Below, piece after piece: positions 17,051 through 39,679 of a stretch of DNA of 42,627 nucleotides. The translations under genes and the position numbers were made by a program. The notes beneath the pieces are model-generated. The model ran no database searches and was not told the origin of the DNA. It saw only the letters and a program-made list of their open reading frames with translations. Position 1 is the first letter of the stretch. Every line of letters begins with the position of its first letter. Source of the DNA: Actinomycetes bacterium (GTDB lineage: Bacteria > Actinomycetota > Actinomycetes > Prado026); assembly GCA_036510875.1 (NCBI GenBank), contig DATCDE010000071.1, positions 1-42,627 of the forward strand, given 5' to 3'.

Positions 17051-17060
17051 CCCGGGTCAG
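17047..17060. repeat. 14-bp perfect palindrome covering the pyk and bldD stop codons
   Basis: CTGACCCGGGTCAG is fully self-complementary. Its left arm holds the pyk TGA (17048-17050) and its right arm the bldD TGA on the minus strand (17057-17059). It could serve as a short two-way terminator hairpin, but there is no U-tract and the loop would be tight. The function is unproven. Confidence 0.5.
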
Positions 17061-17548
17061 TCCGTGACGGCGCGGCGGGCGTCGGCATCCAGCACGCCCC
17101 AGATGATGAACTGCTCGACCAGGGCGGTCGGTGACGCGTCGTAGATCACGGCCAGGGTGCGCAGGTCCTCCTGCCGGACCGACAGCACCCGCCCGTTGTA
17201 GTCGCCGCGCTGGCTCTGGATGGTCGCCACGTAGCGGGCCAGCGGGCCGGCCTTCTCGGCCGGGACGGCGGACAGCCGCTCCAGGTCGAGCACCAGCCGC
17301 GGCGGCGCCTCGGCCACGCCGGTCGGCAGCGATCCGGGCAGCAGCTCGCTGACCGGGACGCCGAAGAAGTCGGCCAGCTCGGCCAGCTTCTGCACCGTGA
17401 CGGCGCGGTCACCGCGCTCGTAGGAGCCGACCACGACCGCCTTCCAGCGGCCCTGGCTCTTCTCCTCCACCCCGTGCAGCGACAGCCCCTGCTGTGTGCG
17501 GATCGCCCGTAGGCGAGCGCCGAGCGCTCTGCCGTAGTCGGACGTCAT
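17057..17548 (-). CDS. bldD: Developmental regulator BldD (c-di-GMP-binding)
   Basis: BldD is the XRE-family repressor that, dimerised by tetrameric c-di-GMP, holds streptomycetes in vegetative growth; many non-sporulating actinobacteria also carry it. The 163-residue product has an N-terminal helix-turn-helix (about 8-70) nearly identical in my memory to Streptomyces BldD (GLSLHGVEEKSQGRWKAVV). It has a linker and a C-terminal ligand domain. The c-di-GMP signature RGD-X8-RQxD is intact: Arg114, Asp116, Arg125, Asp128, with Glu instead of Asp at 127. The ATG start has GAGGGGGG 4-11 nt upstream. Its promoter carries an exact BldD operator, so it probably represses itself. bldD next to pyrR matches Streptomyces gene order. 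Confidence 0.96.
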   Translation of the reverse strand: MTSDYGRALGARLRAIRTQQGLSLHGVEEKSQGRWKAVVVGSYERGDRAVTVQKLAELADFFGVPVSELLPGSLPTGVAEAPPRLVLDLERLSAVPAEKAGPLARYVATIQSQRGDYNGRVLSVRQEDLRTLAVIYDASPTALVEQFIIWGVLDADARRAVTD

Positions 17549-17604: not shown

Positions 17605-17619
17605 GTGACGCTGCGTGAC
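17605..17619. promoter_or_regulatory. BldD operator (autoregulatory)
   Basis: The core 17606-17618, TGACGCTGCGTGA, matches every fixed position of the published Streptomyces BldD consensus NTNACNC(A/T)GNGTNAN. It overlaps the end of the bldD -10 hexamer and the predicted start site, the expected place for a repressor. Confidence 0.8.
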
Positions 17620-17646
17620 GCTACGGAGGGTGATCAAGGACGTCAA
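17618..17646 (-). promoter_or_regulatory. bldD promoter
   Basis: On the minus strand TTGACG (17641-17646) and TAGCGT (17618-17623) are separated by exactly 17 nt, the best sigma-70-type promoter in the window. Transcription should start near 17611, within the BldD operator, giving a leader of about 60 nt. Confidence 0.75.
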
Positions 17647-36091: not shown

Positions 36092-37455
36092 CCGCCGGCC
36101 AGCGCTACCGCCGGCCGCGGCCGGACGCCGCCCGCCGGACCGCCTTCGACCTGCTGCGCGCCGTCGACGAGCGGGACGCCTACGCCAACCTCGCGCTGCC
36201 CGCGCTGATCCGGGAGCGCCGGCTGGACACCCGTGACGCCGCCTTCGCCACCGAGCTGGCCTACGGCACGCTGCGCGGCCGGGGCAGCTACGACGCGGTC
36301 CTCGCCGCCTGCACCGACCGGGGCCTCGACGCCGTCGACCCGCCGGTGCTCGACCTGGTCCGGATGGGGGCGCACCAGCTGTTGTCGATGCGCACACCGT
36401 CGCACGCCGCCGTCGGGGCCACCGTTGAGCTGGCCAGGGCCGCCGTGGGCGACGGCCGGGCCAAGTTCGTCAACGCCGTCCTGCGGCGGGTCGCCGAGCG
36501 GGACCTCGAAACCTGGCTGGCCGTCGTCGCGCCGCCCTACGACAGCGATCCGGTGGGCCACCTGAGCATCGTGCACTCCCACCCCCGCTGGGTGGTGGAC
36601 GTCTTCCGGGACGCCCTCGGCGGCTCGCTCGAGGAGACCGCCGCCCTGCTGGCCGCGGACAACGAGCGGCCGGTGGTGACCTTGGTGGCCCGGCGCTGCC
36701 CCGTCGAAGAGCTCATCGAGCTGGGCGCCGAGCCGGGCCGCTGGTCGAGGTTCGCGGCCCGGTGGCCGGGCGGCGACCCGGCGGCGCTGGCCCCGGTGCG
36801 CGACGGCCGCGCCGGCGTCCAGGACGAGGGCAGCCAGCTGATGGCCATCGCGCTGGCCGACGCGGCCCTGGACGACGGGCCGGACCGCCGGTGGCTGGAC
36901 CTGTGCGCCGGGCCCGGCGGCAAGGCGGCGCTGCTGGGCGCGCTGGCCATGGCGCGCGGCGGTGCCCTGCTCGCGGTCGAGCGGCAGCCGCACCGGGCCA
37001 GGCTGGTCGCCACGGCGGCGGGGGAGACCGCAGCGGTCGTCGTCGCGGACGGGCTGCACCCGGCCTGGCCCGCGGGCGGCTTCGACCGGGTGCTGGCCGA
37101 CGTCCCGTGCACCGGGCTGGGGGCGCTGCGCCGCCGCCCGGAGAGCCGCTGGCGGCGCCAGCCCGCCGACCTGGCCCGGCTGTCCCCGCTGCAGCGCGGC
37201 CTGCTGACCTCGGCGTTGGACGCCGCCCGGCCCGGAGGGCTGGTCGCCTACGTCACCTGCTCGCCGCACCTGGCCGAGACCAAGTTCGTCGTCGCCGACG
37301 TGCTGGCCGGCCGGGACGACGTCGAACGGGTCGACGCCCGGCCGCTGCTCGACGGACTGCCCGATCTCGGTCCCGGGCCGGACGTGCAGCTGTGGCCGCA
37401 CCGGCACGGCACCGACGCGATGTACCTGGCGCTACTGCGCCGCCGCTCAGGCTGA
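36088..37455 (+). CDS. rsmB: 16S rRNA (cytosine-C5) methyltransferase RsmB
   Basis: RsmB methylates C967 of 16S rRNA (E. coli numbering) with SAM. The 455-residue product has an N-terminal NusB-like RNA-binding domain (about 12-140) and a methyltransferase domain. Motifs in order are QDEGSQLM near 250, the SAM loop [14 protein letters not shown] near 271, motif [11 protein letters not shown] (release Cys) near 343 and motif [13 protein letters not shown] (catalytic Cys) near 388. The GTG start overlaps the fmt stop; GGGGGAG lies 12 nt upstream. Its last 9 nt overlap the end of the convergent diguanylate cyclase gene. Confidence 0.95.
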
Positions 37456-38637
37456 CCGCGCGGCCACCCGGTTCTTGCCGGCCGCCTTCGCCGCATACAG
37501 CCGGCGGTCGGCCTCCCGGAACACGTGCCAGACCGTGTCGTGGCCGACGTCGTCGGCGACCCCGATGCTCACGGTCACCTGCGCTCCGGGCCGGACCTCG
37601 TGCCACGGCTCGGCGGCCACCCGCTCGCGGATCCGCTCGCACAGCTCGGCGGCCGCCTCCGCCTCGGCGTTCGGCAGCACGATGGCCAGCTCCTCGCCGC
37701 CGTAGCGGGCCACCAGGTCGGCGCCCCGGGTGCCGTCCACCAGGATCCGGGCCACCCGGCGCAGCACCTCGTCGCCCGCCTCGTGGCCGAAGTGGTCGTT
37801 GACCAGCTTGAAGTCGTCGAGGTCGAGCAGCACCACGCTGATCGGCCGTTCGTAGCGCACCGCCTCCTCGAACATCCGCACCACCTCGGCGTCCAGGTGC
37901 CGCCGGTTGTGCAGGCCGGTGAGCGGGTCCCGCAGGGACAGCTCGGCCAGCCGCCGGGCCAGCGCCGTTTGGGTGGCCAGCGCCGACTGCAGCTCCGCCG
38001 TCCGCTGCTCGACCCGCTCCTCCAGATCGGCGTTCATGGCCCGCAGGTCCGCGGTGAGCTGGGCCGACCGCAGCCGCTCGGCGTCCGCCTCGTCGAAGGA
38101 CTCCCGGACGGCGTACGCCGTGAGGCCGGCCACCACCGCGGTGAACAGGCACATGAGCCCGGCGTAGAGCACCAGTGAGTGGATGCTGACCTCGGTGATC
38201 GCCGCGCTCCGGCTGACATCGTCCAGCAGCGCCAGGATGGCCAGGCTGCCCAGCAGCGCGCCCACCACATGCCGGACGCCGAGGGTGGCGCCGGCCATGC
38301 TCATGAGCAGCGCCACGAACACCGGCGCGTTGTCGACCCGGCCGGTGGCGGTCACCGAGGTGACCAGGACGACGGCGAACATGAGCAGCACCAGCCAGCT
38401 GCCCAGCTCGACCAGCCCGCGCCGGATCAGGGCCACGATGCCGCCGGCCGCGACCATCGCGATCGAGATCGCCCCGGCGCTGGCCACCGAGTCGGGGCGG
38501 ATCAGGGCCACCGGCAGGTACAGCGCAGCGGCCAACATCAGCCCCGCGACCATGGTGACCAGCACCCGGCCGCGCCGGCGCAGCCCGCGGTCGGGTGCGT
38601 GCACCCTGACCAACCAGCCGTAGCCGCGCTGGAGCAC
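37447..38637 (-). CDS. Membrane-bound GGDEF diguanylate cyclase
   Basis: Diguanylate cyclases make c-di-GMP from two GTP. This 396-residue product has six predicted membrane helices (about 25-45, 54-71, 78-95, 104-121, 124-138, 154-177), a coiled-coil linker (about 178-235) and a GGDEF domain. RDPLTGLHNRR opens that domain, and the active-site loop is RYGGEEL (GGEEL 313-317). The inhibitory I-site RxxD is present as RGAD at 304-307, five residues before GG, so product inhibition is likely. I chose GTG 38637 because GGGGGAGG lies 8 nt upstream; GTG 38673 would add 12 residues but has no ribosome site. No EAL domain is present. A BldD-like operator lies about 80 bp upstream. Confidence 0.92.
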   Translation of the reverse strand: MLQRGYGWLVRVHAPDRGLRRRGRVLVTMVAGLMLAAALYLPVALIRPDSVASAGAISIAMVAAGGIVALIRRGLVELGSWLVLLMFAVVLVTSVTATGRVDNAPVFVALLMSMAGATLGVRHVVGALLGSLAILALLDDVSRSAAITEVSIHSLVLYAGLMCLFTAVVAGLTAYAVRESFDEADAERLRSAQLTADLRAMNADLEERVEQRTAELQSALATQTALARRLAELSLRDPLTGLHNRRHLDAEVVRMFEEAVRYERPISVVLLDLDDFKLVNDHFGHEAGDEVLRRVARILVDGTRGADLVARYGGEELAIVLPNAEAEAAAELCERIRERVAAEPWHEVRPGAQVTVSIGVADDVGHDTVWHVFREADRRLYAAKAAGKNRVAARSA

Positions 38638-38713
38638 GAGGCTGTCCTCCCCCGGAAACGATGTGAGCCCCACGGTGTGACGGGGCAGCGCGTCCCGGAC
38701 CCCTGCTCCAAAC

Positions 38714-38725
38714 GGGTGATCACCC
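38714..38725. repeat. 12-bp perfect palindrome between the cyclase gene and rpe
   Basis: GGGTGATCACCC is fully self-complementary and lies between two divergent genes, a common place for an operator. Its right half overlaps the BldD-like site at 38719-38733. The 9-mer GGGTGATCA also occurs in the bldD promoter spacer (17628-17636). Confidence 0.5.
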
Positions 38726-38733
38726 TGCGTGTC
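38719..38733. promoter_or_regulatory. BldD-like operator upstream of the diguanylate cyclase
   Basis: The core 38720-38732, TCACCCTGCGTGT, matches eight of the nine fixed positions of the BldD consensus TNACNC(A/T)GNGTNA; only the last A is T. It sits 82 bp upstream of the cyclase start and 57 bp upstream of rpe. Streptomyces BldD is known to control several diguanylate cyclase genes, which makes the position meaningful. Confidence 0.45.
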
Positions 38734-38776: not shown

Positions 38777-38782
38777 TACCCT
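38777..38782 (+). promoter_or_regulatory. -10 hexamer for a leaderless rpe transcript
   Basis: TACCCT ends 6 nt before the rpe GTG, so the mRNA should start at the codon itself. There is no Shine-Dalgarno. A -35-like TTCTGG (38753-38758) is 18 nt upstream. Confidence 0.45.
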
Positions 38783-38788
38783 GCCGCG

Positions 38789-39463
38789 GTGGGCATTCAG
38801 ATCGCGCCGAGCATCCTCAACGCCGACTTCGCCCGGCTGGCCGACGAGGTCGCCAGGGTCGAGGGCAGTGCCGACTGGCTGCACGTCGACGTGATGGACA
38901 ACCACTTCGTGCCCAACCTGACCCTGGGCCTGCCGGTCGTGCAGAGCCTGCTGGCCGCCACCTCGCTGCCGGTCGACTGCCACCTGATGATCGACGACCC
39001 GGACCGGTGGGCGCCGGCCTACGCCGAGGCCGGCGCCGGCTCGGTGACCTTCCACGTGGAGGCCGCCAGGGCGCCGGTACGGCTGGCCAGGGCGCTGCGC
39101 TCCGCCGGCGCCCGGGCCGGGATGGCGCTCAAGCCGGCCACGCCGGTCGAGCCCTACGAGGACCTGCTGCCCGAGCTGGACATGCTGCTGCTCATGACCG
39201 TCGAGCCGGGCTTCGGCGGCCAGCGGTTCCTCGACGTCGTGCTGCCCAAGGTGCGCCGGGCCCGCGAGATGATCGGCCGCCACGGCGGCTCGGTGTGGCT
39301 GCAGGTGGACGGCGGGGTGTCACTGGAGACGGTGGCCCGCTGCGCCGAGGCGGGCGCGGACGTGCTCGTCGCCGGCTCGGCCGTCTACACCGCCGACGAC
39401 CCGGCCGTCGTCGTGGACGCGCTGCGGGCCACGGCCGAGGCCGCCGCCGTCCAGCGCGGGTAG
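38789..39463 (+). CDS. rpe: Ribulose-phosphate 3-epimerase
   Basis: Rpe interconverts ribulose 5-phosphate and xylulose 5-phosphate in the pentose phosphate pathway. The 224-residue barrel has the [10 protein letters not shown] start, metal ligands in LHVDVMD (His32, Asp34), CHLMI near 74, the [10 protein letters not shown] loop near 138 and VDGGV with the second metal Asp near 173. GTG 38789 gives exactly the usual N-terminus. Ribulose 5-phosphate, its substrate, is also a precursor used by RibBA encoded downstream, although a -10 hexamer on its TAG stop suggests the rib genes have their own promoter. Confidence 0.97.
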
Positions 39464-39466: not shown

Positions 39467-39484
39467 GGCCCCCGCGTAACAGCA

Positions 39485-39610
39485 GCGTGCTCCGGGGTCG
39501 GTGAAAGTCCGAACCGGCGGTGACAGTCCGCGACCCGGCCGAAGCCATCGGCCGGTTGACCCGGTGGAACTCCGGGACCGACGGTGAGAGTCCGGATGGG
39601 AGGCGCACGC
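39485..39610 (+). ncRNA. FMN riboswitch (RFN element)
   Basis: The aptamer is closed by P1 GCGTGC/GCACGC (39485-39490 with 39605-39610). Inside are the conserved RFN blocks in order: GGTGAAAGTCCGAACCGGCGG, shifted one base from consensus length, AGTCCGCGACCCG, GGTGGAACTCCGGGACCGACGG and GAGAGTCCGGATGGGAGG. The variable arm is GGCCGAAGCCATCGGCC (39537-39553). FMN binding should lower ribD-ribE-ribBA expression. Confidence 0.95.
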
Positions 39611-39679
39611 GGCGGGAACCGTCCCGGGTCGTCCCGCGCCGCCGTCCCTCGGCGACGCACCGCCCCGGCCGCGTCCCGT

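Follow-up and report, generated by a model that had tools for sequence, protein, structure and literature searches.

The DNA analysed here is a stretch of 42,627 nucleotides (the window) that encodes the regulator BldD and also a diguanylate cyclase (DGC), whose gene is separated from the divergent rpe gene by a gap containing a BldD-like sequence. The locus thus raises the question of whether this sequence is an operator through which BldD would control the synthesis of its own co-repressor, c-di-GMP.

The candidate box and the divergent genes

The features of the DGC–rpe region are as follows.

37447..38637, minus strand: membrane-bound DGC with a GGDEF domain, I-site RGAD and A-site GGEEL
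38646..38653, minus strand: likely ribosome-binding site of DGC, GGGGGAGG, by direct reading, 8 nt before GTG 38637
38720..38732, unstranded: candidate BldD box TCACCCTGCGTGT, the 13-bp core of the 15-mer at 38719–38733
38777..38782, plus strand: TACCCT, by sequence reading a possible −10 element of a leaderless rpe promoter, with the box upstream of it
38789..39463, plus strand: rpe, ribulose-phosphate 3-epimerase (Pfam Ribul_P_3_epim, E 6e-78), divergent neighbour of DGC

Direct reading of the 15-mer gives ATCACCCTGCGTGTC, which departs from the extended consensus nTnACnC(A/T)GnGTnAn at position 14 only, with T for A. The core TCACCCTGCGTGT likewise shows a single mismatch to the BldD box TNACNCWGNGTNA, at its last base (T instead of A). 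Of the six fixed bases in the published core TNAC(N5)GTNA (PMC4151990), the site keeps five and has T in place of the final A; it also has the C(A/T)G found at the centre of the extended form. In the 4.05-Mb genome, the 13-mer has a single exact occurrence. The box is located inside the gap between DGC (minus strand) and rpe (plus strand), with 82 bp between its end and the DGC start codon (GTG 38637) and 56 bp between it and the rpe start codon. The listed open reading frame of DGC begins at GTG 38673; the start is probably GTG 38637. Because GGGGGAGG precedes this codon and the N-termini of the orthologues align from about 38637, the gap is probably 151 bp long.

The GGDEF domain of the cyclase is recognized by Pfam (PF00990, E 1e-42), and the N-terminal half of the protein is hydrophobic. 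The active-site motif reads GGEEL, with L instead of F as the last residue of GG(D/E)EF. The I-site RGAD (residues 316–319) lies five residues ahead of this motif, and its R and D are invariant in six aligned orthologues. No promoter was recognized at DGC, which tells against an operator here. On the opposite side of the gap, TAGCCT-like elements similar to TACCCT are found just ahead of rpe in several orthologous loci. An FMN riboswitch (RF00050, 91.8 bits) occupies positions 39484–39611, between rpe and riboflavin genes.

BldD, its own promoter and the matrix

The regulator and the sites before its gene are located at a distance from the cyclase.

17057..17548, minus strand: bldD, with the c-di-GMP signature RGD-X8-RQED
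17606..17618, unstranded: exact BldD box TGACGCTGCGTGA before bldD, the best-scoring site of the window
17621..17633, unstranded: second, tandem BldD box CTACGGAGGGTGA, rank 3 by matrix, with one outer-base mismatch

The window BldD contains the Pfam domain BldD-like_C (PF21179, E 3e-36) and a helix-turn-helix domain, above cut-off, and matches the solved BldD structures 2ewt and 4oaz over both domains. The c-di-GMP signature RxD-X8-RxxD is present and reads RGDYNGRVLSVRQED. A preliminary description of this DNA had reported a BldD with an intact signature, a cyclase that keeps its I-site, and a BldD-like core with one mismatch between the cyclase gene and rpe. All three are borne out, by RGD-X8-RQED, by the position of RGAD before GGEEL, and by direct reading together with the consensus match. 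The same description missed the two boxes before bldD, which form a tandem pair spaced 15 bp apart; as a predicted signal of autoregulation, the pair at 17606–17633 is stronger than the candidate DGC box.

A core-perfect BldD box was found in the bldD upstream regions of 37 of 37 genomes, the window's included, so that the motif is usable across this class. The exact extended box is present in 16 of the 37 regions, and pairs of boxes with 15-bp spacing are common in the bldD promoters of relatives. A symmetric matrix was trained on the bldD sites of the 36 related genomes, the window's own being excluded; as it is built from autoregulatory sites alone, weaker targets may be undervalued. The conservation of the box before bldD across the class makes this matrix usable for the prediction of BldD regulons outside Streptomyces. 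The site at 38720 scores 9.2 and ranks fourth in the 42-kb window, behind those at 17606, 13353 and 17621. All 37 best bldD sites share the outer base that is replaced at 38720–38732, but they were chosen by core match, so that this uniformity is partly by construction.

Chance expectation and recurrence before orthologous cyclase genes

It is quite possible that the candidate box matches by chance, with one mismatch, is not used by BldD and was noticed owing to its interesting neighbour gene. Five sites with at most one mismatch were observed in the window, three of them inside genes, against 3.33 ± 1.78 expected from shuffles. The expectation of such a site is about 0.9% in a gap of 115 bp and about 1.2% in one of 151 bp. 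Of 1000 dinucleotide-shuffled versions of the 180-bp region ahead of the DGC start, 2.2% reached the matrix score of the 38720 site. These values, approximately 0.01–0.02, apply to a single promoter, and the preliminary description could pick among many. Its hand estimate, a few one-mismatch sites per 42 kb and rarely one in a given promoter, was about right (3.3 versus ~0.01). Against chance, the case known from Streptomyces marks DGC promoters as targets to be expected beforehand, not arbitrary ones. Across the whole genome, allowing up to one mismatch, the BldD pattern has 231 occurrences versus 123 for a reversed control pattern, both being pattern counts only.

Elsewhere in this genome, no site scoring at least 9 was found upstream of the other scanned GGDEF genes, two of which have an incomplete upstream stretch. 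A PAS-GGDEF gene on contig C184 is preceded, 13 bp before its likely ATG, by the site GATCACATTTGGTGACGATG (G000:C184:1180-1199) with the core-perfect TCACATTTGGTGA, which closely resembles the sites before the cyclase genes of genomes G060 and G075. The motif GATCACNTTNNGTSACVATG is common to these three genes; genome-wide it is matched exactly at one place and with two to three mismatches at 11, and a separate regulon for it was rejected because the matches are too few. A BldD-like sequence, TTACCCTGCGTGT (G000:C25:5899-5911), lies before a gene for a Rex-like redox repressor, carries the same final-base mismatch as 38720–38732 and adjoins the Rex-operator-like TTGTGAACG. No exact BldD box elsewhere in the genome belongs to a GGDEF gene, the contexts having been read roughly. 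Two exact boxes (G000:C253:19511-19523 and G000:C7:21310-21322) are near an ftsK-like/RodZ-like helix-turn-helix gene pair and a TadE-like pilus gene, respectively; these names come from sequence reading only, and a BldD regulon may thus extend to cell-envelope functions.

The compared genomes include two of the same family (G001 and G002) and none of the same genus. In G001, rpe directly follows rsmB with no DGC between them, and a search of G002 for rpe did not find it; neither offered a DGC orthologue for comparison. A DGC-like gene of G001 (contig C39) was rejected as an orthologue, as it aligns over the GGDEF domain only, and has no site. With DGC as query, a scan of genome contigs yielded largely remote GGDEF proteins and gave no orthologue of use. 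DGC orthologues were found in 11 further genomes from three other families, all of which possess BldD; nine adjoin rpe, and those of G060 and G075 adjoin rsmB, apart from rpe. DGC thus appears, gained or lost, at a fixed spot between rsmB and rpe that is common to several actinobacterial families.

A site was called where the matrix score reached 9 or more in the 180 bp preceding DGC, the start positions of some orthologous genes being uncertain. The scores are 9.2 in the window, 11.5 in G060, 15.8 in G075, and 11.1 in G126 and its near-twin G400; no such site was found in G063, G078, G288, G304, G366, G396 and G399. This corresponds to 4 of 11 non-redundant orthologues, from three families, with the window and 3 of 10 without it. 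In a control set consisting of rpe promoters without a DGC neighbour, rather than of all promoters, 1 of 65 reached this score. The enrichment over these controls has p = 0.0012 with the window and 0.0066 without it, and p = 0.037 when the window is left out and the sister species G060 and G075 are counted once. As many DGC-promoter hits were obtained with 0.4% of 500 column-permuted palindromic matrices. The recurrence of the predicted box before orthologous DGC genes is thus unlikely to be chance, and its persistence without the window argues against a fortuitous site, but it is patchy: the 7 of 11 orthologues that lack a box favour chance. The preliminary description had proposed conservation as a check; what stands is an above-chance recurrence in other families (p = 0.0066), and general conservation does not. 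Among the sites of the four box-bearing DGC promoters, that of the window scores lowest, has no tandem partner, and lies 82 bp from the start codon versus 25–55 bp in the others.

BldD might instead have rpe, or the two divergent genes together, as its target and link c-di-GMP to pentose phosphate metabolism with no loop. In favour, both genes have the gap in common, and the box is 56 bp ahead of the rpe start codon, but we consider such a role very improbable. The DGC gene is the likelier target because rpe promoters generally have no box (the 1 in 65 above) and because the box of G060 and G075 accompanies DGC even though rpe lies elsewhere. It is more improbable still that the overlapping palindrome GGGTGATCACCC (38714–38725) is the operator of another dimeric regulator: it is perfect, and its GATCAC also starts the G060, G075 and contig C184 sites, but the window contains 55 perfect 12-bp palindromes (1.3 per kb) and GGGTGATCACCC is not shared by the upstream regions of the orthologues, so that we set it aside.

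The proposed feedback loop and known systems

We favour, with a probability of roughly 55%, the reading of 38720–38732 as a modest-affinity BldD operator in the DGC promoter region that would close a negative feedback. At high c-di-GMP, BldD dimerized by the dinucleotide would bind the box, and bound BldD would lower the transcription of DGC. The RxxD I-site of GGDEF enzymes mediates rapid product inhibition. Repression by BldD would act as a slow transcriptional feedback on top of this fast inhibition, and if the site works, both would operate together on DGC. The analysis shows the site, its rarity in a single gap, the intact BldD and DGC motifs and the enrichment before orthologous cyclase genes; from these we infer that BldD binds and represses here, that DGC is active as a cyclase and that the loop is closed. 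The operator reading is plausible and ordinary in kind.

If the site works, the window would hold a BldD-to-cyclase negative loop in an actinobacterium of another family, on a different cyclase. BldD has been studied mainly in sporulating streptomycetes. A broader proposal, which we hold to be rather unlikely, is that the BldD/c-di-GMP circuit on this rpe-linked, I-site-bearing membrane cyclase has been repeatedly kept or gained in actinobacterial families outside Streptomyces. If true, BldD control of co-repressor synthesis would be general to BldD-bearing actinobacteria and not a streptomycete developmental device.

Tetrameric c-di-GMP turns BldD into an active repressor (PMC4151990). BldD boxes are found in S. 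coelicolor at cdgA, cdgB and sco5511, and cdgA and cdgB are direct BldD targets in S. coelicolor and S. venezuelae (PMC4151990, PMC6205966). These are DGC genes controlled by BldD, as the window gene is a candidate to be, but their products carry PAS/GAF domains and belong to a sporulation regulon, whereas the window genome is of another family.

The closest parallel is ssfg_02181 of S. ghanaensis, a DGC gene of the cdgC type that BldD binds and represses with c-di-GMP, and for which a BldD–DGC negative feedback was proposed (PMC7374567, PMC7911125). This case bears out the statement of the preliminary description that Streptomyces BldD binds DGC promoters (PMC7374567). A loop in which BldD represses DGC genes is therefore already published and not new in kind. 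The essential box of ssfg_02181, TCTACGCTCCGTAAC, carries an outer core-base mismatch (PMC7374567) and is functional, so binding can survive a mismatch of this kind. The window resembles this system in having a BldD box with an outer-base mismatch in a DGC promoter. It differs in that ssfg_02181 has two boxes, supported by EMSA and by transcript analysis in a bldD mutant, whereas the DGC promoter of the window has one, recognized from sequence; the window cyclase is also a different enzyme, linked to rpe, with a short membrane domain and an I-site.
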